Part shown: piece by piece, positions 19,842-57,068 of the stretch
Layout of the letters: each line of letters opens with the position of its first letter
Numbering within the stretch: position 1 is the first letter of the stretch
DNA from: Trebouxia sp. TZW2008
Taxonomy: Eukaryota > Chlorophyta > Trebouxiophyceae > Trebouxiales > Trebouxiaceae
Reading direction: 5' to 3'
Length of the DNA: 64,000 bases
Assembly (NCBI GenBank): GCA_002118135.1
Contig: BDIU01000337.1
Span: 2,195 to 66,194, forward strand
The notes under the pieces: generated by a model
Database searches by the model: none
What the model was told of the DNA's origin: nothing
What the model saw: only the letters and a program-made list of their open reading frames with translations
Translations under genes and position numbers: made by a program

Positions 19842-19913
19842 GTCGACCTAGCTCAGTGGTAGAGCAGCCGACTGCAGATCGGCAGGTCAGCGGTTCAAAC
19901 CCGCTGGTCGACT
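19842..19913 (+). tRNA. tRNA-Cys(GCA): tRNA-Cys (GCA)
   Basis: A full cloverleaf is present in 72 nt with no intron. The 7-bp acceptor stem GTCGACC/GGTCGAC pairs perfectly. The D-arm contains the A box (TAGCTCAGTGG), the anticodon loop CTGCAGA gives anticodon GCA, and the T-arm contains the B box (GGTTCAAACCC). The discriminator base is T (U73), as usual for tRNA-Cys. It lies in the gap between the EF-hand/TPR gene and the GYF-domain gene. Confidence 0.97.
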
Positions 19914-35900: not shown

Positions 35901-38400
35901 CACGAATACACCAGTAGCATCAACATACGTTCGACCAGTGCTGACATTTCTCCACAAACCTCACAATACAGCGTTGGATGTGCAGATGTGCAGTGTAAAA
36001 AACATTGTTTTGAGCTGATTTTCTATGCCTGCTGCCGCCTTATCAACAGCTGTAGATGATATGCAGGCATTGACAGTGTCAGCAGCTTGCTTCTTGCTCA
36101 GATCGTAGGCCTCAGAAGGAACCTTCAGTTCAAAGCAAGAAGCACATCATACAAAGTCAACTTTTTTAGTCCAATCCTACAGCCTGGCAGATGCCTGTCC
36201 AGATCTTTGGCAAAGCGCGGTAGGCAGTCATGTATGCATATGCCATCAATGCATGCTCTTGTGCAAGCACATGCTTACTGGTGAAGGTCTGCATGGTGGC
36301 AAACAAGAGTCAGTCAGCAGGCAAGCAGCAAAGACCAATTTGAGGGGCAGAAGGAAGTTGGTCATCGCAGGACTGACCAGCTTCCTGCAAAGGTCATTAT
36401 AGCTTGAACTGCAGGCTGCAATGACTCAGCCTGTTGCCAGGTCACTTCTGCTGCTCACAACCTGATTTTGAATTCTTGGAGGATTCAGTTCATGGCAGCA
36501 GCATATTTGGTATGTTCTTGCCATTTCGCAGAGACACAGTTGCTCGCCCTTGTGAGAGCTCATGCCTTCAAACTGAGCTTCTTGTAGAGTGGCAATGCCC
36601 ACAGGAATTTGAAGTACAACTGTGTTTTATGCTAAGCTGCATGTCTCAATCACGATGGCTTCTGAGTGCCTTGCTGCCTTTTGTAGTCCCAACACATCAG
36701 GTAAATGCTGGCCACCAGGCCATCTGTGCTTACACGCAGTCTCTTTGGGATGCAGACATTTGCAGCAAAGCTCGTGCACTTCTTTGCGCTCATAATCATC
36801 ATGCTGTGTGCACAGAAACCAGTTGCAAGAGTGGAGGCCTTTGGTCATCAAGTCACAAACCTTTTGGCGGAGCAGTTGGCATCGTCCATTGTGAGATTCA
36901 GCATTCCCTGCCGTCACCAAAGAAGACAACTTTGGGCCGTCAACAGTGAGTTAGTATATTCTTTCAATAACTGTTTTTGCATGTTACGCATTGGCGCCAT
37001 GTGCTGCATACTTCACAGTATGCGCTGCATCTCAGAAATTGATACTCTTAGATACCACGCCTTGCCTACCAAGTATACTGTATCGAGTATGACACATGGT
37101 GATTCACTGATGGTAATGACATCATTAGTGTAGAGCGAGTCAGCCTGCAGAAGGATATCGATGTTGTATGCACAGCAAGCATAAAGTCTTTCCTTGGAAA
37201 TGATGCAGAGATAGTCATGTGCAAGCAGCTTACAGACTACACACTGATGTTGCTGACATGATCATGATACTACCAATTGCAACCGTAGTCAAGCCGGATA
37301 ATCACGGTTTTTGATCGTGCCGGGTGTTTCGGGCCGTAGCTCTCGGACATGGACAGGCTGGCAAGGTTGCAATCGCCATCACTCACGTCTGTTGAGGCGA
37401 GTAGGCGTGGGGCTAACCATGACCCTCAACTTTGACGTGAGTGGAGTCAGGAGGTGGCTTTGACCTGCCTAGGCAAACCGCTCCTGCAAGACTATGTGCC
37501 TCCTAGAGGAGTGCAAGTCTTTTGGGATGCAATATGGCCACACGTCCTCGTCGTGCATCCTGTCAACGTTTGCAGCCTGTTGCGTTAGAGCTGCAGACGG
37601 CTGAGATGGCCATGGTGTTTTGCAACACCTTGACTGTGTCTATAGACACGATCATTCAAAGGCACATAACATGCTTCTGCTACTCTTCATTTTTTCGGAA
37701 AGGCAATTGATTGACTCGAGCCTTATCCAACGTTCCAGACTGGCAAGGATGACTGTAACGAAAAGGGTGACGGCCGATGTAACGCAGCTAATTGCAGAGC
37801 CCATATACGACTAGCGTTGCTACAATTCCCCCCCACTTAAAATCGCGCGTCCCCGAGCGACACACAATCTCACGGACCCGGCAAGGGCCACGCCCCTCAT
37901 CACAGGACGCATCATGTTAGTCGGCAACCCGAACCTCGGAATGGGAGAGAACCCCCTTGCGTTGCGCAGCGGAAAGCAGGAATCGAACTCGCGACCTCAG
38001 CATTTTCCTGAGGTCCGAATCAGGACCAGAACGACAAGTTCCAGAATCCGAAACCAATTGGAACGAAAAGGGTGATGGCCGATGTAACGCAGCTAATTGC
38101 AGAGCCCATATACGACTAGCGTTGCTACAATGACAATCTGACAGCTTCAGCGAAGCTGTGCAGACAAGGGTAGCTGAACCGCCTGCACATCAGTAACGAC
38201 ATACAGACGTTTGACAGGCACGGCAGCAAGGGCCATCTGGAACCCCTGGCCCACACCAAGCAGCAAGTCAAGGTAGTAACGGCATCTTGCCCACCTGAAG
38301 CTGCACAAAACACAACAAACACAAAGTCAGAGCATCACCAAGCACCATCCCCCTCTGCATCAACAACGGATCACCCCAAGCAAAACCTGCACACATTCAA
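35901..38400. other. region without a confident gene; unplaced coding-like fragments
   Basis: This 2.5-kb interval separates the pseudogene from the intact helicase gene. Several short frames look partly coding but I could not chain them. On the minus strand: a fragment near 36,790-36,720 reading D-D-Y-E-R-K-E-V-H-E-L (loosely like an R3H motif), 36,180-36,040 reading K-V-P-S-E-A-Y-D-L-S-K-K, and a possible start exon at 37,420-37,387. On the plus strand: 36,530-36,590 reading E-T-Q-L-L-A-L-V-R-A-H-A-F. The stretch from 37,290 is CpG-rich, which elsewhere in this window marks gene starts. An unidentified gene, or the remains of one, may be here. Confidence 0.3.
37757..38131. repeat. short element bounded by 70-bp direct repeats
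   Basis: A 70-bp sequence at 37757-37826 recurs at 38062-38131 in the same orientation with one visible mismatch (GACGG versus GATGG), enclosing 235 bp. The inner part contains a run of eight C, a CpG-rich stretch, and at about 37,975-38,035 a hairpin (CCTCAG/CTGAGG) beside a tRNA-T-arm-like GAATCGAACTCGC. The layout recalls a miniature terminal-repeat retroelement, but the repeats do not start TG and end CA and no clear primer-binding site sits at the junction. Confidence 0.5.
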
Positions 38401-38884: not shown

Positions 38885-41800
38885 ATGAGCAAGCGCAGTG
38901 CGGCAGCCTCTGCAGCTGCACACGCGGCTTCAAAGAAGAACAGCGCAGTCGAACTGACCGCCGGTGATGAAGAGCGTGCACGTCAAGCTTTGCAGGTTAC
39001 CATCAAACCTGTCACAGACCCCGCAAACGCTCGCTTGCGACGCCATTCAGCTAACACCTCAACGCTTCCATGCAGCAACTTGATCTGCTTACCGCGCCGA
39101 AGCAACCACAAGGCCCCAGCCAGTGGGACAAGGAGGATCTCACTAGTCAGCTTACAGATCTTTGTGACAGTCTGTTGGCTGAGGGCTTCAGATGGCAAGA
39201 TGTCCAGCATTCCTTGCAGGTCAGAATGTGATGTACTTATAAACTGTTCAGGCAGCACTGCAAGCATGCTTTTGACACGATCCCTACTTTGTCCTGCAGG
39301 CTGTCCCTATGGGACAGATGAGTGAAGCCACAGTGCTGGACTGGCTGTGCCTCAATGTAGATCCTGCACACCTACCTCGCAGGTCAGATTATTCCCAAAT
39401 CTTCCTTGAGCTGCACCATCTGTACCCATGTGCTTGCCACTCTGTTGCACACTCTGTATAGTCACCTCAACACTGCATCATATTCAAACAAGGCTCCATT
39501 GAACACACCACATCTTGATGTTCTGCTTGGTTTGAAGCAGTGTAAATTGCAATATCCCCTGATCAAGTGGACAATGCAGATATGCTGGCGGGGCTCAGTC
39601 AAGAGCAGCCGCATCTGGCGTAAAGCTAGTTGCCAAAGCAAGCACCAACAGACCGCAAGCCAAACCCAAACCAACCATTCCCAGAATCTCACCTGAAGAA
39701 GAGGCAAGGCAGCGGCGTGCAAAGCAGCTGGAGCAGCAGGCAAGGGAAAAGCAGGCGGCTCAAGCAGCTGAAGCAGCAGCTGCCAAAGAAAAGGACGCTC
39801 AGCGGCAGTGGATTCTGCAGTATGCTGAGGATGACTCTGAGTCTGACATTGATGAAGAGCAACAGGAAAAGGTGATATCTGAATAGCACCACACACTGAT
39901 TGCTGGCAACCGTCATGCCAACTTCCAGTGTTAGTTCCAGACAATGCAGCAGCACCTTTGCATGCAAACCACAAGGCAGCAACACCCACACCCATACCCA
40001 CAAACATGCTGTCATTTACGGCAAATTACTGCTTCTACACATTGAGCATGAACTGGTGCGGTGTAGCCTGTGCATGGTACTCTGATTGAGCAGCAGCCTA
40101 TACAACAAATTCTGTGCGAGGCGGTCAACTCAGTACGTTCGCAACAGCATGGCTAATCTACCATATTAGGGTCTGTTTGGGCAGTTAGTTGGCACAAACG
40201 CAAGGGTGGACCCAGACACACTTACAGGTCGACTGTGTACAAAGATCTCTTCACTCTTTTAGACTCAGTACAAATGGTTCATGTCACCAAGACCAAACCG
40301 ATTGGAGCTACTTGGTTGCTCCAGTATGTAGCTAGCCAGGCCTGCTGAGCCTGTATTGCATGTGTGCTTTCATGAACGGGTAAATGAGTGAATGAAATGA
40401 ACAGCAGGGCTACTGGTGCAGGAGGAAGAGGTGATAGAGGATTGGGAGTTGTGGGGCGACCCTAGGGAGGTGGAAAGGAGGAAGGCCGACAGGCGCAGGG
40501 CTGCCCAACCCTTGCATGTGCGCCAGGCCCAGGTCATACCACAACCCTCCGCCTAATCTGCCCCTTCCTTTCCCGACCCCTCAATGTCCAGCCAACAGCA
40601 TCAGGCTCACAATGTCTTTGTTTGCATGAGACACGCTCTTGAAGTTATGCTGCTGTCTTTCAACAAATATCAAGATGGCAAGGCAGTTGAATTATCCATG
40701 CTTGGCTTCTGAAGCCAGGGCAGTTCAGTTGCATGCAACCACCCTAGTGACTGCAGCCGTGCTGAGTCATTTCTTCTCCGTGCTCTGCTCATATTCCTCA
40801 GAAATTGCTTTAGTTGTCTGTGGCGTGCAAGGACATTGCTGCGAGTGACAAGAGTTGTTTGATAGATTGATAGTGGTGCTGAGCTGCAGGTGGCTTCTGA
40901 GTGGGGTCAAGCCAAGGCAGAAGCCTCTCAGGCAAAAGCTGCAGGGGACAAGAACAAGCAGAAGGGCATTGGTCTGGTGATCAGGAGCCTGAAGCAGGAG
41001 ATGAAGGAGATAGGTGCGTCAAAGCTTTACATCTTGACATCAGGTCTGTAGTTGTGTGGTGCTTTTGCTGTATCTACATTGCATGCTATGCAGCAGTGCC
41101 CTACTGTGCGCTTCAGCAATAATGCGAGTTTTGGGGTCTGGCTGGCTGGTTGCACAAGACAGCTGCTTTGCTATTATATGGCATGCTACACAGCAATAAT
41201 CTGGCTGTACATGCACCAGCATAGCAACAACCTAAAGCTCCTTGTCACACCTAGATGCTTGCTCATGCAGCACTTGCGCATGCTGCCAAGCTTTGCACCT
41301 GCAACACCAAATCAGCAGCCATTGCCTTAATGTGGGTGTACATATTGCAGTCAAGCGCAATATGCTGCAAAGCACAAGCACCATTCATGTTGATGAATGC
41401 CAAACCATGAGATTGCCTGATAGGGTGCATGTGGTCAGGTCTGGATGAGCAGAAGATTGAGGCCATGCTGGCGCCACAAAGCCAGCCAGCCCTCTCTGAT
41501 GATGATCAGTTTCCCTCTCTGGCTGGCCCTGCCCCTGCCCTCAGCCCTGCCCTTGATTCTGCTCCTGCCCTCGACTCTTCCTCAGATCCAGCACAACCTC
41601 TAATGGCAGAGCCTGACAGCATGCATGACCCAGTACAGCTCGACTCAGCTCAACAGGTAATGCCCTGTGACTCACCCCTGCCCCTGCCTCTGCCCCAGTT
41701 CTGCCCCAGCGTTTGCTTAAGACATTGCCTTAGACAACTCATTACCCCTGGCGGGAGAAGCTGACAGAACATATGATGTGGCACAGCAGGACTCAGCTCA

Positions 41801-42759
41801 ACACATACCGCCCTGTTACTCAGCCCTGCCCCTGCCCTTTGTTCTACCCGTGCCTCATGTGCTGTCCACCTGGCATGACTGTACCCACCAGCAGCAAATA
41901 AGCCTTGGACTGCGAATAGCTGATGCAGACCTCTGCCTGTCAGTGCGCAAGAACCGCATTTCAAGTGTGCGATACAGGCAACAGCAACATGAAAGGGTCA
42001 TGAACCCTCTGCTGTCTCTGTTGTCTCTGAACAACAGCTTGTTTGTCAGCACTGCTGCTTGACAATTAAGCTCGTGACTTGTCTGCTCTTCTTCAGGAAG
42101 CAGGACAGACAAGCCAGCCAAGCAAAGCCGGCCCAGCTAGCAATGAAGAAGAAGACCTCATGGCTGGGGGGCTGGGCATGTTTGAAGATGAAGAGGGAAA
42201 GGAAGAGAGCTGGACAGCCCCTCTGACAGGGCAGAAGCCTAAGCCTAAGAAGCTGACAGGGCCCTGGGGAGAGTACATGGGGGCAGCTGGGGGCCCTCCT
42301 TTAAAAGGCAGCAAGAAACGACCAGGTGCAGCTCACAAAACATGCTCATACTTATGATCATGCTCATGCTTATGCTCATGCTGCTGCTGGTGCTGCTGCT
42401 TGTACTGATGCTCACGCTCATGCCTATGCTCAAACCAGACTTGGGCCAAACGCATCTAATACCTGTGCCAGACCGTGTAACATGTTACCACCAACATTGC
42501 GCTGAAAAAGCTGCAAAACGAATCTGTTTTTGATGCAACACGTCTGACCAGCGCATGACAGTGACTTGGGTTTGGTACAGGCAAGCCACAGGAGGCAGCT
42601 GTGGTGAAGCTGCCAAAAGCCCTGTTGCAGCAGCATTGCCAGAAGCTGGGGTGGGCGCCCCCCCGCTTTGACAAGCTACCCCTGGGGGGCAGCCGCCTGC
42701 CCACTGCATCTCTGCGCTATTCTGTGACCCTAGAGCCTGCAACCCAAGGCAAGGTGTGC

Positions 42760-42799
<40 letters not shown>

Positions 42800-45700
42800 A
42801 CACCCCCCCCCCCCCCCCCCCGCCTTGCTCCCCCCCCTTCTCCCCCCTGCCCTTTTCCCAAACAAGCAGCCAACCCAAGCCTTGAAGTTGGATCCATAAT
42901 TAAGGCCAGCTGCTTCTTTTTGGGTGCTTTGCACGATCTTGTCACTAAACACATCGTACAGAGCTGCGAAAGACGAGCACCTGGCCTCACTTATGAGTCC
43001 AAGCTCGAGGCTTAGGGTTTGCAACCAAACTGTGCAGCTGACTTGCTGTCGTATGTACAGTTGCAGGAATCATCATGATTGAATCCTGCTGTCATTGCTT
43101 TCTTGTTCAGGCTTTTGTATGTAAATTGACACTAACAGCATGGGTGCGTTGGGTCAGCGCATGCTGTACGCACTATTGCAAGACATACCGTGGCCAATGC
43201 CTGCTGTCATTGCCAGCCATGCTTGTCAGGCATGCATGTATGGTAACAGTCGGATGCATGCATGCATGCATGTATTGTTTGCAACTGCTGTGTTGCGCAA
43301 ACACGGCAAGAAGGCAAGGCTGCTTTCAGGGCCAAAAGCTGGGCCTGACTATGCCCTGAATGTGTGATTGCAAAGGTCAAATGGTCCAAGCCTGCTACCT
43401 TTCTAAGTATGTTGCTGAACATACATGTCCAAGCACCCCAGGGTGCATTGTTGAGCTGAATCAACATTTACTGTTTGTTGCAAACAGGGCAAGAAGGCCA
43501 AGGCTGCTGCTAGGCCCAAAACCTATGCCTTGCGTGAAGATGAAGATGGGTGGGAAGGCATTCAAGAGGCTCAGAATGCAGCTGCCACCTTTGCTCTATT
43601 CCAGGTACTGCAAATTTTCACATTCCCAAGCGATGTCTTGATGTTGGCGCGCATCACTTGCTGACCGTGGCGCGAAAGCAGCCCAGCGCTCTATCAAGCA
43701 ACATGCACAGCCAACTAGCCAGCGCAAGCTAGCCATCTGTTGAGGTTTGCCATGCACTGCTGGTTCAGCAAACAAGATGGAGGCAGTGGCTGTGGCAGTG
43801 GCAGTAGCTGTAGCCGTAGATGCAGCAGCAGTAGCAAGCCATGCAAGTCATGAAAGTCAGTAACTTCTGTTGTATGCAGCTTGCAGAGGGTCAGGATGTG
43901 TACCAGCTGCTAGCCTCCCCTTACCAGGACCTCTGGCTAGGCTGGCTCAACAATGGGACTGACGCCTACAAGCAGCAAAGCGAGCACAGCAGCTAACAGA
44001 GACTGGATCTTGTGCACTCTGTCATTGACGCAGCAAGTAGGAACAATCAGTAACTCTTGTTGTGTTGCAGCTTGCAGAGGGTCAGCATGTGTATCAGCTG
44101 CTGGCCTTCCCTGACCAGGACCTCTGGCTAGGCTGGCTGGACAAAGGCAAAGATGCATGCAATGAAAGCAATTCACTTACTGAAATATCTGCTAGACGCA
44201 TGATCAAAGATAAATTCGCTAGCATGAAAATTCTGCTGGAATGCAGCTTGCAGAGGGTCAAGATGTGTATCAGCTGCTGGCCTCCCCTTACCAAGACCTC
44301 TGGCTAGGCTGGCTAGACAGCGGGACTGACGCCTACAAGCAGCAAGCCAAGGACAGCAGCCAACAGAGACTGGAGTTTGTGCGCTCTGTTGTGGACGCAG
44401 CAAGCGCTGCTGCTGAGATTGCGGCTCAGAATGGCACTCATGTGCCTGTATATGCTGAGTCACCAGATGCTGTTCAAAGCCAGCAGGTGAGTTTGCTCAA
44501 ACAGACCCTCAGCGTAGCAAGTCAAAGACAGCAGTAAATAAGGCTGGCGTTTGTGTGGTCTGGTGTAAATGCAGCCACTGCTGCTGCTGGGACTGCTGCT
44601 CAGAATGACACTCATGAGTCAGCAGATGCTGTTCGAAGTCAACAGGTTAGTTCGCTCAAATTGCCCCTTGAAGCGGCAAGTCAAAGATAGCAGTGAACAA
44701 AGGCTGGAGTTTGTGCGGTCTGTTGTGGATGCAGCCACTGCTGCTGCTGAGACTGTGGCTCAGAATGGCAGCCATGTGCCTGTAGATGCTGAGTCAACAG
44801 ATGCTGTTCACAGCCAACAGTTTGCTCAAACAGCACCTTGAAGCAGCAAGTCAAAGACAGCAGTAACTAAGGCTGGACTTTGTGCGGTCTGTTGTGGATG
44901 TTGCCACTGCTGCTGCTGAGAGCGCTACTCAGAATGGAGCTCATGAGCCTGCAGATCCTAAGCCAACAGATGCTGTTCAAAGCCAATAGGTCAGTCGTCT
45001 TGTGCATTTTTGTGTATGTCAGGCCTCGTGTCTGCTGCGTCAGAGCAGCTTTCATAACTTTATCTTGCAAATATGAATTTCTGTCCTGTTGAGTAAGTTG
45101 TATGAGGTGTGAAAGCAACTTGCTTTGTACAAGCTTTGGAGGCCCTTGTCAGCCTGACCATATGATGTTCTCTGAGAGGCGGCGGCAACAAGCACCCACC
45201 CGCAAAATCTCCTGATGACTATGATGCTCAGTATGCATGTTTGCTGTCGGCTTAACATCAGTCACATGTGCAGTCCAAAGCATGTCTTTACATATGAACA
45301 AGCAGGGTAGCGGGGCAACACTGAAGCTTGCAAGAAGCATAAAAATCGGGGCCTACTGATTGCCAAGCTTTTTGCTGGCTTGACTGTGGTTGTGCTTCAG
45401 GCTGATGCAGTGTTGAAGATGATACAGCCTGCAGCAGCAGCGCAGCTTTAGCATGGGCTGCCAACAAAACCCTACACGCTTGAGGGCTTCAATGAAAGCT
45501 CTGCTGGACATTACCGTCAAACAGGTTATCAAGTTGCAGGGTGCAGAAGAAGCTCCCCAGGGGATCAGAGGGCTGAGTCAGGGCAGATGGCAGCAGCGCT
45601 GCACACCTGGCCCTGACATCAAAATTGATTGGGTGTTGGGCGCCAGGATTGAGAAAAACCCCTAAGAACAAGTTACAATACTATTTTTGTTAGGGGAATG

Positions 45701-48700
45701 AATTGAATTGTAGGGTTTAGGGTTTTGAGCTTTTTTGCGCTTTCTGTGGTGCGAATCAAAATGATGAGTCATAATGCAGGGGCACACCTGGCGGGTCAGC
45801 CAAGAAGGGCGTTGAGGACTGCTTCATTGTACTGCTTCGAAGAAATGGAACTTTGCTTGTGCAGGCTGAGACGACGCTGCAGGTGAGAGAGCAAGGCCCT
45901 CAGCAGAAGCCAGAGTCAGGGCAGATGGCAGCAGCCCTGCATGCCTGGCAGAACAGCCTGAAGGGACCCAACAGCAAAAGGACAGGGCCATCCAGACTGC
46001 TTCACTCAAGTTTCCTAACAGGGATCATGCTGAAATTGCAGACTGAAAAAGTTTCTCAGGCAAGGGAGCAGACGCCACAGCAGCAAGCAGAGTCAAGGCA
46101 GATGGCAGCAGCCCTGCATGCCTGGCGGAACAGCCCTGAAGGGGCCCAATGGCAAAAGGACAGAGCCAGATTGCCTGTCTTAGCCATACGATCAGACTTG
46201 CTCACTCAGCTGGCACAACACGATGTGGTTGTTGTCAGCGGTGACACAGGCTGTGGCAAAACCACACAGGTACTGTCTTTTGCGTCTTTTGCAATTTGTG
46301 CATGCATGCATGCCCTGTGGTTCAGCTGGAGAGATGCACGCACTTTGTGCACCGTCGCGTCTATACACATGCTGGTTACATGCCCAGTGTAAGGACTGTG
46401 CATCAGATCAGCCATGTCATTCTGGATCCTCTTCTGCGTATGGACCCTTAGATGTGCTATTGCAAGCATTGGTACAGTGATTCCGCTTTCCGACGGTACT
46501 CAATTTAAGGGCATTCTCAATGTAAGAACAAGGCGGTTGGGAAACCATCACTGCGTGTTGACTGCAGTGGTATCTTTGAGTAAAGACATTCTCGCTATCA
46601 GGAGATGAGCAGCAATCAAGTCAATTTTTGTGGTCACAGTACAGTCTGTTCACGATGCTGGGCTGATGGATGGTGCACACAATGGTCCTGCCTTGTCTTG
46701 GGGTGCAATGCAGTCATGATACCGATGAATGATTACTGTACAGCAGATCAAGTGCTTCAATTGCTGCTCACCTTGGGATGACACTCTGCAGGTTCCTCAG
46801 TACCTGCTGGAAGCAGCAGTAGAAGGTGGCAATGGCGCACAGTGCAACATCATCTGCACTCAGCCACGCAGGATTGCAGCCATGAGCGTGGCAGAGCGTG
46901 TGGCGTCAGAGAGAGGGGATTCTCCTCCAGGCACCCCAGGTATGCACCCCCACCTTCCCACCGTACTTTTGCCCTCCAACGCTACCCTTGGACCTCCCCC
47001 CCTTTCTCCTTTCCCTCTCAATGTGCCTGGCATCTTGCATCTTGACTTTGCTAAGCTTCGTCAGCCATGATGATGCTATAACACAAGTCTGCCTTTTGGA
47101 GCCCTATTGACTCTTTTTCAGCTGTTTTCCACCCTGATGTGTCTAGTGTCATTTGCAATAGTCTGGCCCTCAATGATGCTTTGTTATGGTGGCTACCAAA
47201 GACTCTGGACAGAGTTGTTGGGAGGCATCTCATTGCTTCTGAAAGCATCAAGAAGGGTCACTGAAACTTGCTAGAAGATATGTCAATAACAATGATGGTG
47301 ATGCCGAGGCATGTGTACACCAATTGTCTCAAAGCTGCCAACAAAGCATATGCCCGGTGCAGGGTCTCGAGTGGGGTACCATGTGCGCCTGGATGCAGCC
47401 ATGACGCGCGACACCCGCCTGCTGTTCTGTACCACAGGGATCTTGCTACGCCGCCTAGCAGGGGACCTACAGCTTCCAAATATTTCACATATCATTGTTG
47501 ATGAGGTCAGTGGTCAAAGCATCATGCTTCATACTGCTTGGCAGGGCACCTTCATGCATGATGTTGTTTGTGTAGCTTTTGGTCAGATTTGGGAGCCTGC
47601 CCGTCTGTGGCGTGCGCTGAGCACAGACATTGTACGATGATCAGTAGCGCTCTGGCTGACAATGCTCTGTTTCTCAAATTTTGTGTCATGTTTGTCAGGA
47701 TATGTTTGCGTCACATTGTGCAATTACTGCAAACTGACTGTGTTGCAGATGCCATGTAGCACATGGTTTGTGACTGTGAAAGCTGCTCATTCAAGCCCTT
47801 GCCAGCAATACATGGTTCAAATATGTCCCAGCTATAGTTGTGTGCAAACTTACTACCAAATGCGCAGGTACATGAGCGCACCCTGCAAGGTGATTTCTTG
47901 ATGGCGCTGCTGAGGGATTTGGTCACCGCAAGGCGAGCTGCTGGCAACCCTCTCAAGGCAAGCTTTGACACCTTCAAGACAGAACTGCCTGCAGTCTGCC
48001 TTTCAACAGAGCCATGATATGCAGTGAATCACCATACTCTTCATGTCAGTGATTGATACTGTAAAGTCCTTGCATATTGGGTGTTACATATTGGTCACGT
48101 CGTATTTCATGTTTCACAATTTGCACTGCAACTCAGTGACTCCCACTCTCAAAATCTTTGTATTGCGTATCACATATTGCATATTGAGTATTCATTCTGG
48201 CGATTCTAGTATATGACGACTGTGATGGCAATCATCTCAACGAAGTCTTGACTTGCCTGCCCGGCTATGATTGTCTTGATCTGGAATGAAAGCTTTATAC
48301 AATAGATTATCATGTCATGGCACTGCTGCATAAGCACACAGCCTGATAAAGCATCTACTGTTTGTGACACCTGGCTTTGACTTTTGCATCACTGTCCTTT
48401 CAATGTTACAGCGTACGGAACATGCAGGGATCCAAGTGCCGTTGCAGATTGCGGTGCTTTGCTCACATGCCAATACAGCAGCATTGCAAACTGTGCAAGG
48501 GCATTGCAGATCATGGCTCAATGATGCTGATCATGCTATGCCTAGCTGCAACAGCATCAGGCAATGTGCAGTGCTGAACAATTGCAATGCCCCTTGCTGC
48601 AGGTGATCCTGATGTCAGCGACTTTAGATTCCCACCTGTTTGCAAACTACTTTGGAGGGGCCCCCGCCCTGGCAGCAGGGGGGCGCACCTTCCCTGTGGA

Positions 48701-51700
48701 GCACTTCTTCCTTGAAGATGCCCATGACCTAATAGGGTATCGTCTGGATTCTGAATCCAATGTTGCCATGAGGCCCAATAGGGATGCTAAATCAAGACGG
48801 CAGTTGGAAGCTGCTGCTGGTGGCAGGGACAGACAGGGTTTGCTTAGGGTATGTGTCCTGATGCACAGGGTTTCAGCTCTGCTACTCTTGGGCTACTTTA
48901 CAGCATCAGCTTCCTATGTTGCTTGGAGGCTATGCTCACGCTGATGACTATAAGCTTGCTCAGCCAGAACTGACACTGAGAGAAACGTCACAACAGTAAA
49001 GAGCTGCATTTTACCAGGTGGGCGGGCGGATGATACCAGGTACCCAACTGTACCATCATGCATATTGTTGCTGCTGCTGAGCACTCCTGCAAGTCAACTG
49101 CAATAGCGCATCAACATAATTTCTTGCCATGCACAGTCAAGCTGTGTCACATAAGGAGGTGTTGCCGCACAGGCCGGGCAGGGGGATACATACTGCCAGG
49201 GACCCCGTTGAAGTCCCCTTTACTCCCCATTGTAACAGGATCTAAGCAAGTACAGCAGCAGCAACATTTGATCAGAATCTTTTTCTGATATAGGGAGCAA
49301 TTTTGTGAATTGTCAATTTACACAATACTGTTGTGTATAGGCTGGGTGTGGAGATCATACTAGGGACCCTCATGCACTCGGTCTTGATGCCTGATCAATA
49401 GCTTTATTGCTCTTCATGTGCAGCCACATTGCACACTACATATGCTGTCATGACAAGATAAACCTGCGCACAGGCTGGATGGGGTGATGATGCTAGAGAC
49501 CCACTTGAGCCCCGTTGAAGCCTCACTTCAGCCAGCAAAACTTGAGTGAGTACAGCAGCAGCAACCTAGTCCTGGAAGAGGACTGCATTGACTGTCATGG
49601 CTGATCAAGTGCTTTCTGCCATTCAGTAACAACCTGCCACGTACAGGCTGGGTGGGGGGATGATGCCAGGGACCCCCTTGAAGCTCCCCTAAATCCCCAT
49701 TTCGCCCAGCAAGACTTAAACGAGTACAGCAGCAGCACCCAGCGCAATCTAGCACGTCTGGACGAGGACCGCATTGATTATGACCTGCTAGAGGAGCTAG
49801 TCACCTACATCGACCAGAACTATGGGGAGGGAGCAATCCTGGTCTTCCTGCCTGGTATGCGCCCCTACCCTTTAGCTGGGGAGGTCATGGGGCTGATTGT
49901 TGCACACATCTCAAGGGGCTCCTGTTGATGCTACCCCCCACTCCCCTGCTTTGGCCCCTTCTCCCCTGTGCCTCTCCTTCCATTGCTGCCCCCTCTGTCC
50001 CTAGCTTTGGAACTCCCCTTGGCTTTGATTGTGGGCACCCTCCGATTGGCAAGACAACAAAGGTTTCAGAATCCTAGTGAGTTTGAACAGGCACTGTAAT
50101 GAACTCATGTATTGAAGCCTGGCTGACCAATGTTATCATACAAACACCCCGACTTGCCACAGGCTCTCAGCAGCCTGTCAGCTACTGTCTGCTGACATTG
50201 CGACTCACACTGCAGGCGTTGATGAGATCTTGTCTCGTCAGGAAAGGCTGTCAAGCATGACCAAACACTGGCAGGGCAAGCACTGGGTCATCCCCCTTCA
50301 TTCCTCAGTGTCCCCAGCAGACCAAAGGCTGGCCTTCAAGCGGCCCTCAATTGATGTCACTAATGCTACATCTGATACACAGTCATTGGAGAAATCTCAT
50401 GCCTGCAAGAGAGGCTATCAAGCACCGGCAAGGGAAGCACTAAGTCATCCCATCGCATTCCTCAGTGTCCCCAGCAGACCAAAGACAGGCCTTCAAGCAG
50501 CCCTCAAGTGATGTCACTAATGCTAGATTTGATACACAGGCATTGGTGAGATCTCCTCTCTTCAGGAGAGGCTGTCAAGCACTGCTAAGCACCGGCAAGG
50601 GAAGCACTGGGTCATCCCTTTGCATTCCTCAGTGTCTCCAGCAGACCAGAGGCAGGCCTTCAAGCGGCCACCTGCTGGTGTGCGTAAAACCGTGATTGCT
50701 ACCAACATTGCTGAGACCAGTTTGACCATTGAAGATGTGGTTTATGTTGTGGACTCTGGCAAGCTCAAGGTATGTGCCTTGACAGACCGGCTTGCATTGT
50801 CTGTGTGCATCAAGAGGCAGGCCTTCAAGCGCCCGCCTACTGGGGTGTGCAAGACTGTCATTGCCACCAACATTGCTGAGACCAGCTTGACCATTGAAGA
50901 TGTGGTGTATGTTGTAGACTCTGACAAACTCAAGGTGTGTGACACAACCAGTTTGCAATCTGTGCAAGAACAGCTTGCACATAATGCAATGACACAATGC
51001 ATTAGACCCAAACCTTTTGAGACCTGCTCATTCTCTGACACTTTTCTCAGAGCCGCATGCAGTGTGCACCAGACACCAGCTGTGAACTCTTCCCAAGTCA
51101 GCCGTTTCAACCACACTGACCTGCAAATAGAGCTCATTGGCCTCACTCTCAGTCCAGTAATATTGGGATTGCACAAGCGTCAGCACAACCCACGGCAAGG
51201 CATGGTTCTTCTGATATATGGAGCTGGATTGACACATTAACACACTGCAGGTGACAGCCCAAAAAGTCTCTCACGAAGCCTGGCAGGAGTTCCTGGAGTG
51301 CCTTATGTATTTGTGCTTTGCATTTTATTACCACACCTATCTGGTCAAACTCAAAACATGATGATATTGACATTTACTTACAGGAGCGGCGGCATGACCC
51401 ACGGCGGGGCATGAGCCTGCTGGTGGAGGACTGGGTCAGCAGGGCTAGTGCCCTGCAGCGCAAGGGCAGGGCTGGTAGGGTCAGGGCAGGGCTGTGCTGG
51501 GGGCTGTACACCCGCCACCGTTTTGAAGACCGCATGCGCCGCTTCCAGGTCACCCCTCCTCTTCATTTTCAGTGCATTTCTATAAAGATTGGGAATGTCT
51601 TGAGGGTCAGTTTGTGTTGGCACAAAGTTGGTTTGAAGAGAACTACGTGGAGGCACTGCACTTCTCCTTTTTGCACCTAGCCGGATTGCGGGACCTTACT

Positions 51701-53845
51701 ATCAATCATGCACATTATGACGATAATGATGTGCCATGAGTGCCTTGGCTTCCAAACTATTTCAGACCTCAAGAGTTTTTGAATGCTGAAACTTTTGATA
51801 CTCTTGAATTCAATGAATCGTTTGTAACCCCTTGTTATACCATTTTATAAAGCTGCAAAGAAATAAGGAGAAATAAATAGAGAACCTTTTGTTGTTCTCA
51901 ATGTATGAGCTGCTGCTCAGCAAGCTGCCCTCAAAGCGGCTTTCTACTGACAGCTTCCCTTGTGCACAACAAGACGTCAAAAACATCTTGATGCATGAGG
52001 AGGCTGTGTAAATTCTCTGAGTAAACACTTACTAAGCAAGAGTCGTGGCCTCAAAGTTGGCGCAGATGTACTGCGTGAACATGCATTTACTGATTGACTA
52101 AGCACTTGGTAAGCACTCACTAAGCAGCAGTGCAGGCTTCTGAGATGGTGCGAATGACGCTGAAGGAGGTGGTGCTGCAGATCCTAATGCTGGGCCAGGT
52201 CATTGCAGAACAATTCCTTAAAAATGCTGTGCATCTGCACTGACTAAGCCTGAGCAAGCTGTGACTCAGCATTGCCTAAACCTGAGTGCAGGCTCCTGAG
52301 ATGGTGAAGGTGCCTCTGAGGACTCAGTGCGGCAGATCCTACTGCTGGGGCTGGGCCCTTTGCCTCTCTTCTCTTTCTGGACAACAATGCAATGACCATA
52401 TGATGATCAAGCACTGTCTCATCAGTGCATCTTCAATGACTAAGCACTGACTAAGCAAGGGTGCAGGCTCCTGAGATGGTGCGGGTGCCTCTGGAGGAGT
52501 TAGTGCTGCAGATCCTGCTACTAGGGTTGGGCCCTGCAGAGCAATTCCTTGAAAAGGTGCTGGAGCCACCTCCCAAGGCCAGTGTGGAGGGGGCCCTCAC
52601 CCACCTTCAGGCGCTAGGGGCCCTCACCCCTGATCAGCAGCTCACCCCTCTAGGTAAGCCCCTTCCTATCAAACCACCTCTCCCCACTTCAGCCCTCTTC
52701 TTTGGAAAGGTGATGAAGCCCCCCCCAAGGCTAGTGTGGAGGGGCCTCTCACCCTCCTACAGGCCCCGGGGGCCCCCACCCCTGACCAACAGCTCACCCC
52801 CTTAGGTAGAGACTCCTTCCCCCCTTGCATACTCTGGTGCACGTGTTGGGGGCCTGCACCCCTGACCAGCAGCTCATCCCTCCTGGGAAGCCTATGCTGG
52901 TCTGCAGCGTGATGCCTGTGCAGTCATCTTAGCACACCCACATACAGGCCAATAAAGTCTCTGCAGGTCACATTTATGCCAGTTGTTTGTGAATGTTGGG
53001 ATAAAGTGAAACAACACAAGCGATGCCTGCGGTGGAGTGACATACAGCAATGGGCCCTCGTGACTCAACGGACGTATGACGGGCAGATTAAATTCTGTTG
53101 GTCTGCAGGGCGTCACTTGTGTCAGTTGCCTGTTGATGCTGGGGTGGGTAAACTGCTGGTGCTGGATGCCGCCTTGGGTTGCCTCTCAGTCTGTCTGACT
53201 GTAGCTGCCTGCCTCAGCTACCGCAGTCCTTGTGCCTCACGTTTTTACCACGACAGTTCTGCTGCGCAAGTGCACCATACACACTGCCATACACACTGCC
53301 GTACACAGTGCTGTATACATGACCATTGCTGTTCTGCAGGTCGGCACTTGTGTCAGTTGCCTGTGGATGCTGGGGTGGGTAAGCTGCTGGTGCTGGGGGC
53401 CGCCCTGGGCTGCCTCTCAGTCTGTCTGACCGTGGCTGCGTGTCTCAGCTACCGCAGCCCCTTTGCCTCAAGTCCTGACAACCAGGATGCAGCTGCTAGA
53501 GTGCGCCAAGCCATGGCTGCCACAGGTTTTCTTCTTTTTCTGTTCACTGCTGTCTTCTTTATGTTCACTGACCATGTGTTCCTCCTTATCTGTCTTCTGG
53601 GCACAGGTGTTGCTGTTTTGTGTTTCTGCAGCAGCTTTGCGAGCCAAATTAGCAATGATAGCTGCATGCAACCTGAATACAGTTCTTCTGTGTGTAGAGG
53701 CTGTCTTGTAAGCTCAAGTGCTCATTTAAACCAAATCAAATGTGAAATCTTGCGTCGACGTTAATTCTTGCGTATGGGCTCTGGCTGTCACTGCCACGTA
53801 GCATGTCTGTAGAGCTGCAGCTATCCTTGTAGTGCTCGCTTGCTG

Positions 53846-53943
<98 letters not shown>

Positions 53944-56900
53944 ATGTATTCTCATTGTTGGTTCTCTCAGGCAGTAGAGCTTTGCCAGGTGCTGCACTTG
54001 AGTTCCCAACAAGCTTGACTGTGCAGCTTTCCAGGGGTAGTAAGAAGGCCCTCAGATTTGACATTGTCTGGGTGCTTTGACAAAGTCCCACCACTAGACT
54101 CTGCTGTTGCGGAATGCTTAGCATTCGAGACCATTCTCCAAAAGGCCCAGATTACTTCTGACCATTAATGTGTCGAGTGCAGGCAGCGGCAACATTGCAT
54201 GTGGGCAGCAGTCAGATCACCTGCTCATGGCGGCGGCCTACAATGGCTGGGCTGCTGCCAAACACAAGGTAAAACCTGCCTTCACAGTCAGTCTTAATCT
54301 GTATACTCTTCTTCAGTACATTCAGCTAAGTATTCGTCCACAATTGTCAAGTCACCTACAATGGCTGGGCTGCTGCCAAGCACAAGGTAAAAACCTGCCT
54401 TCACAGTCAGTCTTGACACATATACTCACTCTGATACATTCAGCTGAGTATTCGTCCAGAATTGTCAAGTGACCTACAATGAATGGGCGGCTGCCAAGCA
54501 CAAGGTAAGACCTGCCTTCACGGTCAGTCTAACCTGTATACTCACTTCTGTACATTCAGCTAAGTATTCGTCCACAATTGTGAATTTACCTCCAATGGCT
54601 GGGCTGCTGCCAAGCACAAGGTAAATCTGCCTTTGCAGTCAGTCAACCCTGCATATGCAGTTTAGTACCTTCAGCTCAATTGAGCATCAACAGTGTCAGT
54701 TGACCTACATTGGCTGGGCTGCTGCCAAGCACAAGATACAATGTCCCCAATTGATCATCATATCCCTCCAAACTGCGCACTCTTCAACCTGCATAGTTAG
54801 TCCAGTCCGTCCAGTTCAGTCCTTACATTGGTCAATTCTGTCAAATTGCATAAATTGACTGCTGCCAAGCATAAGCTGAAAACACCCCCAATTCAATCTG
54901 CATACTCAGCCCAACCTACACATTTGATTTAAGCTTGATAAGTTCTTCAGTCTTGATGTTGACTTCCCTACATCAGCTGCCAAACACAAGACAAAGCAGC
55001 TCGCACCAACCTGCATAGTCAGTCTGACCTGCATGCTTCTTATGTCATCCAAATGAGCCGTTCATCAACCATGTCACTGAAAAAGAGGTTCTAAAAAGTT
55101 TATAGAGGACTGGAAAAACATCACAAAAAGTCTTATTGGGATAGAGATGACTTGTGGACAAAAATAAAAGATTAGTGCAGCCCTTAAATCTATTGCTGGC
55201 TTCAAGATCTTTCCTGTCACTGTCCAGCCTAAACATAGGTGCGTGGTACCAGGCTTGTGATGCCAGGCTGGTAGAACTAAATCAACACTGACATTGCAAA
55301 CATTCAAATCTGTGCAAGGTCTTACATGTCTTTCAGTGAAGGCAAGATTGCACTGCAGTTTGCTGCAGCTCCTCGACAGCAGAGTCTCTTTCTGCAGAGT
55401 CCAGTCCAGCAGCCTTTGCCTGACAAGCCTGCTGCAATGTTTTCAGGAGGGCAAACAAGGGGCCAGGGTGTTTGCGCGTAAGCATTTTCTGAGCGAACAG
55501 ACCCTGGAGATGCTGGTGGACATGCGCTGGCAGTTTGCCTGTATGCTGGCCGACAGCAAACTGGTGGAGGGCAGTTCACGTGGCTCAAAGGGGCGAGACT
55601 GGATGGACGACCCCAAACAGCCCTTCAATGCCCATGATGCTAAGCCTGCTGTGGTGAGTCACCAGCTGCAGATAAGACCGCTGCATAAAACTTATGTAAA
55701 GTTGTGGGCATGCCTTTGCTTTTGCAAGGATACTATGTGTTTATGCATGTTTGTTGGGCCCTGTTGGTGACAGCTTGTAGTATTGACGGCAGTGATATGC
55801 CCTCATGTAGCATGCTGTAGGAGTTGCGCCCTCTTTACTGTGCTGTATGAGTGACACAGGTCAAGGCAGTGTGAGCAGCAGTACTATATCCAGGTGTGTA
55901 TGAGTGACATAGGTCAAGGCAGTGTGAGCAGCAGTACTATATCCAGGTGTGGCAATTACAGACAAAGGGGCCGCCCTTGCATGCCGCTGCAGTCACTCTG
56001 ATATGCTGTATGAATGATGCAGGTCAAAGCTGTATTGGTATCAGCACTATGCCCCCTTGTCATGTGCTGTATGATGCTGTAGTCCCTTGACTATGCTGCA
56101 TGGACTGCTCAGGTGAAGGCAGTGCGGCAGCAGCACTGTACCCCAATGCGGTAGTGACCAACTGCATGATGTTGCCCTCTGAATGGCATGCTGGATGACT
56201 CCGCAGGTCAAGGCAGTCTTGACGGCAGCCCTGTATTTTAAGATGTGGCACTGAACTGCTTTCAGGGCTGTATGGGCAGCAGCCTTGTTCCTTGTGTTGT
56301 ACTGCTCTCTGAAGAGCATGCGGTGTGACACTGCAGGTGAAGGCAGTGTTGGCAGCAGCACTGTACCCCAACGTGGCAGTCATGGACAGTGGGGCGGGTC
56401 CCAATGCCCGCCCCACCTGGCACGATGGGCAAGGGGGGGTTGTCATCCACCCCTCCTCTGTTAATCACCCCTTGGTAGCAGTGCAGTATCTGCGGCCTTA
56501 CTTGGTCTATCTAGAAAAGGTAGTACTGTTGCTGACATGACACGAAGCAGCAAAAGCATCCTGAACCTGTCCCACCAGTCTCACAGCCTTTGGTTCTGCC
56601 TGCAACTCTGAATAATGCATCAAGGTTGGAATGAGCAAATACAGTGCTATGTTTTAGAGGTCAGTGTCTCAATCATGGTGTGATGGGACCTCCAAGGCAG
56701 TGTCACTGCTCAGAGTTCAGTGCCTCAAGCATGTTGCAAAGGGATCTTGTCTGTCTGTGCAGATGAGGACTAGCCAGACCTTCCTGCGAGACACCACAGC
56801 CACCTCCCCTTTGGCTCTTCTTTTATTTGGTGGTCAGCTGGAAATTGTGCACGGTGAGGGATACGTGCTGGTTGACAGCTGGATTCGAATTCGTGCAGCA

Positions 56901-57068
56901 GCCCCAACTGCAGTACTGGTACAGAGATTGCGTGGTGGGCTTGACACTTTGCTTCAGCAGAAAATTAGGCAACCAGGATCAGATTGGGGTGCTCAAGCTG
57001 CTGAGCTGATTGACACCATCATCAAGCTGTTGCAAGATGAGGAGGCTGCGCGGCAAAGGGAGAGATAG
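38885..57068 (+). CDS. DHX29: DHX29-type DEAH-box RNA helicase
   Basis: About 25 exons give a product near 1,480 residues, normal for DHX29, a 40S-binding helicase that helps scanning on structured 5' UTRs. Clear exons: 38885-38995, 39076-39219, 39300-39382, 39580-39871, 40422-40517, 40890-41013, 41439-41656, 42097-42325, 42581-42753, 43488-43604, 44247-44486, 46042-46269, 46792-46939, 47363-47505, 47868-47957, 48603-48848, 49647-49854, 50540-50769, 51384-51548, 52467-52653, 53340-53525, 54183-54268, 55447-55653, 56337-56519, 56763-57068. Motifs: [11 protein letters not shown]; Ia [16 protein letters not shown] split by an intron; [28 protein letters not shown]; then winged-helix, ratchet and OB-fold exons. 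The N-terminal half holds a UBA-like exon and a dsRNA-binding-like segment ([11 protein letters not shown]). A small exon may be missing between 44486 and 46042. The intron at 47958 has a GC donor. Confidence 0.93.
41610..41850 (+). repeat. copy of the end of helicase exon 7 with its donor
   Basis: Exon 7's last ~50 bp and the intron start (about 41,615-41,695) recur at 41,762-41,845. Shared text: GACTCAGCTCAACA, then CCCTGT.ACTCA.CCCTGCCCCTGCC. The copy has lost the GT donor (GGTAAT became CATACC). Confidence 0.75.
42345..42432 (+). repeat. imperfect (TGCTCATGCTTA)n minisatellite
   Basis: Repeated CATGCTCATGCTTATG-type units, grading into CTGCTGGTGCTG, form a short minisatellite in the intron after helicase exon 8. 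Confidence 0.7.
42761..42821 (+). repeat. 61-bp poly-C tract
   Basis: The tract is almost pure C with two A residues near its middle and starts 7 bp after the donor of helicase exon 9. Length is likely to vary between reads or clones. A C-rich run next to a donor could fold as an i-motif, or as a G-quadruplex on the other strand. Confidence 0.95.
43290..43570 (+). repeat. decayed upstream copy of helicase exon 10
   Basis: The acceptor side and first half of exon 10 (43,475-43,560) have a diverged copy at 43,292-43,375. Shared features are GCAAACA.GGCAAGAAGGC.AAGGCTGCT and a CTATGCCT.G.GTG stretch. The copy has lost the AG acceptor (AAACACGG instead of AAACAGGG) and runs into a stop. Confidence 0.75.
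43866..44995 (+). repeat. array of six copies of helicase exon 11 or parts of it
   Basis: The intact exon (44247-44486) is preceded by copies of its 5' half at ~43,870-44,035 and ~44,062-44,165, each with an AG acceptor and L-A-E-G-Q/H-D/V-Y-Q-L-L-A. It is followed by copies of its 3' half at ~44,530-44,645, ~44,670-44,825 and ~44,850-44,990, each with the GCCACTGCTGCTGCTG...CAGAATG core. The first copy carries an in-frame TAA; the later ones lack an acceptor or the expected frame. Confidence 0.9.
45395..46150 (+). repeat. three related copies ahead of the helicase core exon
   Basis: The start of the exon at 46042 ([15 protein letters not shown]) has a close copy at about 45,885-45,985 ([15 protein letters not shown]) and a worse one at about 45,530-45,620. 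A smaller pair, GCTGATGCAGTG.TGAAGATG at 45,402 and GCTGAGACGACGCTGCAG at 45,866, may be copies of a tiny exon. Confidence 0.8.
49010..49790 (+). repeat. array of four to five copies of the start of helicase exon 17
   Basis: The functional start (49647 onward, [14 protein letters not shown]) is preceded by decayed copies beginning near 49,017, 49,172, 49,339 and 49,471. Each has an AGG.TGG.(C/T)GGG.TG.GATGAT or similar opening followed by AG.GACCC. The copies at 49,172 and 49,471 run on to GAGTACAGCAGCAGCA-like sequence. They contain indels that break the frame. Confidence 0.85.
50216..50945 (+). repeat. four partial or complete copies of helicase exon 18 (motifs IV-V)
   Basis: Copy 1 (50218-~50,370) has the most canonical start, [11 protein letters not shown], but ends before motif V. 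Copy 2 (~50,375-50,520) is frameshifted. Copy 3 (50540-50769) is complete with motif V and a donor, but its start has drifted to [11 protein letters not shown]. Copy 4 (~50,815-50,938) is a second intact motif V half ([12 protein letters not shown]) with its own donor. Confidence 0.9.
51160..51430 (+). repeat. decayed copy of the start of helicase exon 19
   Basis: The acceptor-proximal ~60 bp of exon 19 (51,378-51,435; R-R-H-D-P-R-R-G-M) recur at 51,170-51,230, reading R-Q-H-N-P-R-Q-G-M. The copy ends after about 20 codons. Confidence 0.75.
52120..52890 (+). repeat. copies of both edges of helicase exon 20
   Basis: The 5' edge ([11 protein letters not shown], 52,455-52,535) has decayed copies at ~52,130-52,205 and ~52,288-52,350, both starting GGCT(C/T)CTGAGATGGTG. 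The 3' edge (52,560-52,660; [12 protein letters not shown]) has copies at ~52,710-52,812 and ~52,843-52,890, each ending near a CTCACCCC.TAGGTA or TCATCCCTCCTGGGAAG stretch. Confidence 0.85.
53100..53525 (+). repeat. near-complete upstream copy of helicase exon 21
   Basis: The first ~140 bp of exon 21 (from 53340) are copied at 53,107-53,245 with over 90% visible identity, including the acceptor and [18 protein letters not shown]. The copy is open to C-A-S, then diverges, and no good donor follows. This is one of the youngest duplications in the gene. Confidence 0.9.
53838..53943 (+). repeat. (CTTG)n microsatellite
   Basis: About 24 tandem CTTG units, nearly perfect, lie in the intron after helicase exon 21. 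Each strand is open over the whole run because the 4-bp unit makes a repeating four-residue peptide; that is not a gene. Confidence 0.97.
54228..54880 (+). repeat. array of copies of the end of helicase exon 22 with its donor
   Basis: The exon end (54,228-54,268; [11 protein letters not shown] followed by GTAAAA) recurs at ~54,353-54,395, ~54,470-54,510, ~54,590-54,625, ~54,700-54,738 and ~54,850-54,878, with a period near 120 bp. The first three copies keep AAGGTAA donors. Flanking intron text (CTGCCTTCACAGTCAGTC...CATTCAGCTAAGTATTCGTCCA) is copied too. Confidence 0.92.
55790..56380 (+). repeat. array of copies of the start of helicase exon 24
   Basis: The acceptor and first codons (CAGGTGAAGGCAGTGTTGGCAGCAGCACTGTACCCC, from 56,333) are preceded by decayed copies near 55,857, 55,912, 56,020, 56,110 and 56,205, most with CAGGT(C/G)AAGGCAGT and a GCAGCA.(C/T)ACTGTA-like core. 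Spacing varies from 55 to 125 bp. Confidence 0.9.

Follow-up and report, generated by a model that had tools for sequence, protein, structure and literature searches.

The window analysed here, 64,000 nucleotides of the forward strand of a contig of the green alga Trebouxia sp. TZW2008 (GCA_002118135.1, BDIU01000337.1, positions 2,195 to 66,194), contains a gene for a DHX29/DExH7-type RNA helicase whose introns carry diverged, partial copies of the edges of its own exons. Coordinates are window positions unless another contig is named, and all helicase features lie on the plus strand. Spliced alignment to Trebouxia proteins placed the coding span at exactly 38885-57068; the model was built with protein P0001 of Trebouxia sp. 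C0004 (83% amino acid identity over the searched region), and the C-terminus was taken from a second protein, P0002. Exon 7 (41439-41656) was set by us in place of two small uncertain exons of the automatic alignment, whose raw output had 26 exons, with the frame kept. The resulting homology-based model has 25 coding exons and 24 introns, with a predicted coding sequence of 4,437 bp that has one terminal stop and no internal stop, in line with an earlier, sequence-only reading of this DNA that had described an 18-kb gene with about 4.4 kb of coding sequence. A self-trained ab initio prediction of 82 exons, many of them tiny and unsupported, was replaced by the spliced alignment. The introns range from 80 to 1,573 bp and total 13,747 bp. 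The source assembly comprises 68.5 Mb in 527 contigs at 50% GC; a published Trebouxia genome is described as comparable, at 69.1 Mb and 49.68% GC (PMC12712428).

Copies of exon edges are clear at ten exons (7, 10, 11, 12, 17, 18, 20, 21, 22, and 24), with boundaries taken from the spliced alignment except at exon 7, which lies in a fast-evolving region and is less certain. The exon 7 donor edge has one downstream copy at 41783-41836 (partner 41635-41688, 85%), and exon 10 (43488-43604) has an upstream copy of its acceptor edge at 43305-43346. Exon 11 (44247-44486) is flanked on both sides, by two upstream copies of the acceptor edge at 43880-44037 (88%, one stop) and 44071-44143 (92%), and by three downstream copies of the donor edge at 44516-44631, 44671-44820, and 44841-44985, with a period of about 160-175 bp. 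Upstream of exon 12 (46060-46269), the exon of the Walker A region, lie a copy of the acceptor region at 45898-45990 (88%) and a distal one at 45572-45611 that stops short of the edge. Exon 17 (49647-49854) likewise has an upstream acceptor-edge copy at 49474-49566 (79%, frameshifted) and a distal copy of the acceptor region at 49194-49263. Exon 18 (50540-50769) is preceded by two acceptor-edge copies at 50216-50345 (85%) and 50384-50502 (80%, with a stop and a 10-bp gap), and followed by an uninterrupted donor-edge copy at 50813-50934 (88%). Exon 20 (52467-52653) is also flanked on both sides, with acceptor-edge copies at 52136-52229 and 52292-52359 and donor-edge copies at 52698-52800 and 52849-52882. 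The acceptor edge of exon 21 (53340-53525) has an uninterrupted upstream copy at 53111-53242, with 89% identity over 132 columns, and the remaining pairs and copies have identities of 72-97%. Exon 22 (54183-54268) is followed at 54355-54735 by four copies of its donor edge together with the head of the intron, with a period of about 118 bp and about 85 bp of intron in each unit, and pairs in this array align over 124-355 bp of intron. Upstream of exon 24 (56337-56519), four copies of the acceptor edge lie at 55860-55891, 55913-55971, 56113-56155, and 56207-56235. Array periods are near 118, 157, and 160-175 bp. Also within helicase introns are a C-rich tract (42761-42852, with 61 bp close to poly-C) and a microsatellite in which TGCT is repeated about 28 times (53833-53943).

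Self-BLAST of the window returned 38 local direct pairs and no inverted pairs, 30 of them in the helicase gene and 8 in the other 46 kb, and one run of a block-wise Markov shuffle of the window returned no local pairs. At least 10 bp of exon sequence, at ten exons, is present in 26 of the 30 helicase pairs. An exon boundary is spanned by 25 of the 30, a count reached in none of 2,584 circular shifts (mean 13.0, sd 2.9), in which pairs wrapping round were dropped and pairs within one array are non-independent. On this count, the comparison with random positions that the sequence-only reading had proposed came out in its favor. The pairs touch 13 distinct boundaries, an unremarkable number that 25% of circular shifts also reach, and the polarity of 24 pairs in the right direction and none in the wrong one was matched in proportion in 4.9% of shifts. 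Because these two measures are weak under shifts, more weight is carried by a test in which 60-bp edges, consisting of exon sequence only, were aligned to the adjoining intron, with 22-23 other introns of the gene as controls. The adjoining intron exceeded all control introns at 14 of 48 helicase edges (9 acceptors matching upstream and 5 donors matching downstream), and no wrong-direction match was found at any of the 48. Strong copies, with an alignment score of at least 30, are present in the adjoining intron at 13 of the 48 edges, always upstream for acceptors and downstream for donors, and no match of this strength was found in non-adjacent helicase introns; the exon 19 acceptor match is weak (28 vs 22 for the best control) and is counted among the 14 and absent from the 13. 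These results indicate that the pattern of exon-edge copies is real, and they bear out the earlier claims that at least ten exons are involved and that upstream copies carry the acceptor side and downstream copies the donor side. The further claim that the introns are built largely from such copies was too strong, as the 30 pairs together cover only 3,360 bp, or 24%, of the 13,747 bp of intron.

The pattern was then followed beyond this gene in a 264-kb sample consisting of the window and the first 100 kb of each of contigs C62 and C13. The two added stretches contain 323 direct local pairs (141 and 182) and 4 inverted pairs (2 and 2), giving totals of 361 direct and 4 inverted pairs within 3 kb, as would be expected from the repeated local tandem duplication described in the sequence-only reading; no pairs arose when each of the three sequences was Markov-shuffled once. 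Direct repeats less than 700 bp apart cover 16% and 21% of the added stretches and 8% of the window. Local repeat density in the C62 and C13 stretches is very uneven, ranging between 1 and 40 pairs per 10 kb, which would suit duplication hot spots in certain genes or neighbourhoods. Two further genes were tested, a Tudor-SN gene of 17 exons on C13 (85% identity to a protein of Trebouxia sp. C0006) and a BOP1 gene of 10 exons on C62 (80% identity to a protein of Trebouxia sp. C0004). Matches scoring at least 30 in the expected direction were found at 17 of 32 Tudor-SN edges and 3 of 18 BOP1 edges, so that the three genes together have 33 of 98 edges with matches in the right direction and none in the wrong one at this score. 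The Tudor-SN density is biased because the gene was chosen for its visible copies, while BOP1 was picked for its recognised protein when the repeat list had already been seen. Under the rule of exceeding all controls, each of these two genes has one wrong-direction match below 30 (23 vs 22 in Tudor-SN and 18 vs 17 in BOP1); BOP1 also has two right-direction matches below 30 (20 vs 17 and 21 vs 19), and one Tudor-SN control alignment scored 31. The pattern is therefore present, at uneven density, in all three genes and both added stretches examined, and the helicase gene is not special in this respect.

The state of the copies was assessed in 49 copies from the helicase and Tudor-SN genes with an alignment score of at least 40, which leaves out the exon 7 copy. 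Differences between copy and exon number 121, 123, and 276 at first, second, and third codon positions, over 1240, 1240, and 1230 sites. That first and second positions are hit equally fits evolution of the copy regardless of codons, and the excess at third positions is expected because of silent change in the living exon, so that the pattern is near neutral. The copies contain 8 stops and 23 gaps, 20 of which are not multiples of three, and 22 of the 49 have stops or frameshifts in the aligned part. Together with identities mostly below 90%, this agrees with the earlier view that the copies decay. As aligned, every copy is partial, the longest share of an exon being about 71% (132 of 186 bp, exon 21), as expected if complete copies would be spliced in and then lost. 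Among the copies that reach the edge, splice dinucleotides are retained in 27 of 32 at acceptors and 18 of 25 at donors (hand count), which by our own estimate roughly matches neutral decay. Over 305 pairs, identities are at least 95% in 3, 90-95% in 11, and 85-90% in 50. The most similar pair of at least 40 bp in the window (37754-37826 and 38059-38131; 73 bp, 97%, with a 232-bp spacer) lies just upstream of the helicase gene and has no obvious relation to an exon. On C62, at about 72908-73166, a young copy resembling an exon tail (93%) is separated from its partner by a 70-bp unrelated spacer, and beyond a donor-like site its homology is lost over about 17 bp. A nucleosome-length quantum, proposed from first spacings near 150-190 bp, was rejected, since 249 nearest spacings are broadly distributed (median 189, with the highest bins at 140-180).

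The copies are associated with intron length, as the median is 686 bp in 20 introns with copies and 393 bp in 20 without (Mann-Whitney p = 5.6e-5, introns of two genes), although longer introns also give more room for copies. Of the 25,966 bp of intron in the helicase and Tudor-SN genes, 3,718 bp are recognisably exon-derived, and older copies would be unreadable and hence fall outside this detected share. The sequence-only reading had proposed a route of intron growth; its tie to length and its independence of transposons hold up, whereas cause goes no further than association, given the effect of room.

We consider it probable, at roughly two chances in three, that small local tandem duplications spanning exon boundaries, filtered by splicing and read through survivorship, explain this pattern without targeting. 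Many small local tandem duplications would have struck the genome, leaving copies mostly 60-260 bp apart; slippage, template switching, or break repair may have produced them. When the duplicated unit lies over an acceptor, the last copy would have to act as the real exon edge, and when it lies over a donor, the first copy would have to do so, as otherwise the mRNA would be damaged. Survivors would thus place an extra copy of the exon edge in the upstream intron (acceptor) or the downstream intron (donor), lengthening that intron, and the surplus copy would then decay. Copies containing exon sequence would outlast purely intronic ones in readability; they are recognisable longer because the partner exon is conserved, and they therefore dominate the readable record. 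Similarly, since only duplications that preserve the mRNA survive, the polarity of the copies is no evidence of targeting. Homology also extends beyond the splice site into the intron flank, by at least 30 bp in 56% of 57 copies compared to 14% of 746 controls. The tandem-duplication step itself, the splicing filter, and the old age of most events are what we infer from these observations.

Given that purely intronic copies diverge on both sides, the real question is the excess of pairs with exon sequence, which make up 54 of 73 pairs in two genes, a share of 0.74. This was addressed by simulating random tandem duplications of about 150 bp with a filter for an intact mRNA, neutral decay, and the same detection as for the real data. 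The settings were chosen by us (mean unit 110-160 bp, the share of indels, starting introns of 90-100 bp, and a minimum intron of 40 bp at acceptors and 10 bp at donors), with 3-8 replicates per setting. When the events were old, with 0.2 substitutions per site of decay, the simulated exon share was 0.74 (0.65-0.79), with 28 exon-edge copies (30 in the real data), 7 intron-edge copies (10), and 88 pairs (73). If half of the growth came from other insertions, exon shares of 0.53-0.71 were obtained at decay of 0.10-0.15 (0.71 at 0.15). An older episode agrees with the identity spectrum, in which only 14 of 305 pairs reach 90%. The sequence-only reading had placed the duplications specifically at exon-intron boundaries, a restriction that lacks support in that form, since random duplication with old events and no targeting comes near the real exon share and the real numbers of exon-edge and intron-edge copies. 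In the full simulation, intron flank values (mean 15.2 or 11.4, median 12 or 9) also came close to the real ones (mean 16.6, median 9).

Several results weigh against duplication without targeting. Duplication at a constant rate was rejected, as it gave mean exon shares of only 0.26-0.47 over 24 settings of three runs each, with a maximum in any single run of 0.50 (0.54 in a separate earlier set). In constant-rate settings 45-50% of the simulated events fell on a boundary; two deletion-heavy settings were uninformative, leaving about 3.6 kb of intron and 3.5-4.5 pairs, each of which included exon sequence. In the old-events simulation the exon share fell to 0.61 at decay of 0.15 and 0.40 at 0.10, and no single setting fits every measure, since 0.20 fits the exon share and 0.10-0.15 fits third positions and flanks. 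Divergence at first and second positions is 0.098 in the real copies and 0.13-0.15 in those simulated at decay of 0.10-0.15; decay of 0.05 alone matches these positions, but it misses third positions and flanks. The ratio of third-position to first- and second-position differences, 2.28, is above all simulated values (1.60-1.70), and gaps per 100 columns number 0.61 compared to 1.30-1.96 in simulations, the latter depending on the indel rate we chose. Wrong-direction matches average 1-10 in simulations of the two genes and are absent from the real ones. When duplications confined to introns were suppressed to a quarter, the exon share was 0.78, near the data, and a crude first model of the flanks placed 30 of 43 copies below every simulated value. 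Collapse in the assembly could also have removed young pairs. Finally, in four of five young pairs, examined by eye, one end of the homology lies within about 2-17 bp of a splice-like site and the spacer looks unrelated.

This last point is what would be expected if duplication were targeted to or bounded by splice sites, for example if fragments of exon were copied off RNA, or off a DNA intermediate linked to transcription, and inserted close by, an explanation that we regard as unlikely. It would require a process, either recognising splice sites or bounded by them, that copies the edges of exons by preference into the introns next to them, with some dead copies kept exon-like, and on this doubtful premise the introns of the lineage would grow mainly by accretion of exon-edge copies. 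The exon share and the small number of intron-edge copies (10 vs 30 exon-edge copies) both lie outside the constant-rate simulations, and simulations suppressing intron-only events fit about as well as the model with an old episode. In 21 pairs of at least 88% identity whose spacer measures 40 bp or more, the flanks are close to control level (on either side, 10% exceed the 95th percentile of the controls), and a donor-like motif occurs at the right end of the homology in 22 of 305 pairs compared to 12.2 (sd 3.0) internally, with none of 200 draws reaching 22. Acceptor motifs, however, are not enriched at the ends of the homology (86 vs 92.0 and 81 vs 75.3), and the donor motif of the opposite strand is only weakly enriched (11 vs 7.9). 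With all copies taken together, homology in the intron flank is commoner than in controls, as given above, the exon 22 array takes in intron sequence with every unit, and an old episode of random duplication yields the real exon share without any targeting. Since the full simulation removes most of the flank discrepancy of the crude model, exon-bounded copying is kept only as a rival to untargeted tandem duplication.

The high ratio of third-position differences could also mean that selection at the protein level acts, or for a long time acted, on the copies as alternative exons or splice sites, and that they died later; we consider this improbable as a general explanation. Uninterrupted copies have a ratio of 2.60 (27 copies), rising to 3.07 in the 8 of at least 100 columns, compared to 2.02 in the 22 disrupted copies, and the exon 18 donor and exon 21 acceptor copies have 3 and 4 differences at first and second positions vs 12 and 11 at third positions (2/1/12 and 2/2/11 by codon position). 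Because the ratio is highest in long uninterrupted copies, a few may still code, and by this measure the copies at 50813-50934 (exon 18) and 53111-53242 (exon 21) may be candidate alternative coding segments, now or recently. On the other hand, stops or frameshifts interrupt the aligned part of nearly half of the copies (the 22 of 49 above), the copies are one-sided and cover at most the 71% of an exon seen at exon 21, the Trebouxia homologues (1442, 982, and 752 amino acids) are about as long as the single-copy models, and a somewhat faster third-position rate would yield the same ratio.

Gene conversion from the conserved exon, which would keep the exonic part of old copies young, is a very improbable explanation. 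Exonic parts do look younger than their flanks in the crude model (the same 30 of 43 copies, which fall short of every simulation at double the divergence of the copy), and by eye the exon 21 copy is better matched at its start than further on, but the full simulation, with variable unit ends, nears the flank values without conversion, and conversion should homogenise the intron part too.

Insertion of transposons or introners as the source of the repeats is strongly disfavoured, in agreement with the earlier view that the route is distinct from transposon insertion. Introners are described from green algae (PMC9860276), and a dispersed repeat of about 170 bp in intron 11 (45611-45784) abuts an exon 12 copy, but exon edges match only the adjoining introns and not other introns of the gene, and the spacers between copies consist of dispersed repeat to 0.9% compared to 0.7% overall, a comparison made within the 264 kb only. 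The intron 11 repeat, which is not itself a copy of an exon, recurs in at least 39 other places in the genome at 69-83% identity and in both orientations, and an alignment of eight places suggests terminal inverted repeats, so that it is possibly a MITE. An assembly artefact is hardly credible even for a draft of 527 contigs, as the copies differ by roughly 3-28%, mostly by more than 10%, with distinct disruptions at many loci on three contigs. Elsewhere in the window, the sole match to Rfam (gathering threshold) or from ARAGORN is a tRNA-Cys (gca) at 19842-19913.

Small tandem duplications made harmless by splicing have a precedent in the tandem genomic duplication model, described as forming new introns from a duplicated exonic AGGT segment (PMC3443670; PMC2891723 for Drosophila), with a case of intron gain in a potato RdRp gene (PMC4974935). 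As in that model, splicing makes a short duplication harmless, one splice motif is used, and the extra copy becomes intronic; in the model as described, however, the unit lies inside an exon and creates a new intron, whereas here, in several genes and repeatedly, it would span an existing boundary and lengthen an intron. Copies here continue an exon edge that already exists, inside an intron that already exists, in contrast to the within-exon AGGT of intron gain, and no acceptor-side copy starting at the first base of an intron was found when coordinates were compared by eye. Tandem or mutually exclusive exons (PMC5740500) similarly have like exon sequences adjoining in direct orientation, but the copies here, as aligned, are incomplete, lie on one side of the exon, and are often broken, while the Trebouxia homologues used have single-copy length. 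Introners share with this pattern a mass change of intron content within one genome, green algae included, but PMC9860276 presents them as a family of dispersed transposable elements that give rise to introns, with target duplications of 3-9 bp in some, whereas here each copy resembles its own neighbouring exon. No report of introns lengthened by duplicated exon edges, in Trebouxia or elsewhere, was found among the listed titles and abstract openings of open-licence papers, which leaves absence from print unproven, and the main text of the Trebouxia 'A48' paper contains 'intron' once and 'tandem' nowhere.

The pattern extends the known tandem-duplication route from intron gain to intron growth. 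The lengthening of introns without transposons is seldom directly visible. In this alga, one intron can contain exon edges in successive degrees of decay, and because each can be set base by base against its living original, the rate of duplication, the size of the unit, the splicing filter, and the decay would be measurable within a single genome. Should the pattern hold across Trebouxia, the tandem-duplication route to new and longer introns would become testable genome-wide. The introns of this alga probably keep a partly readable record of their own growth.

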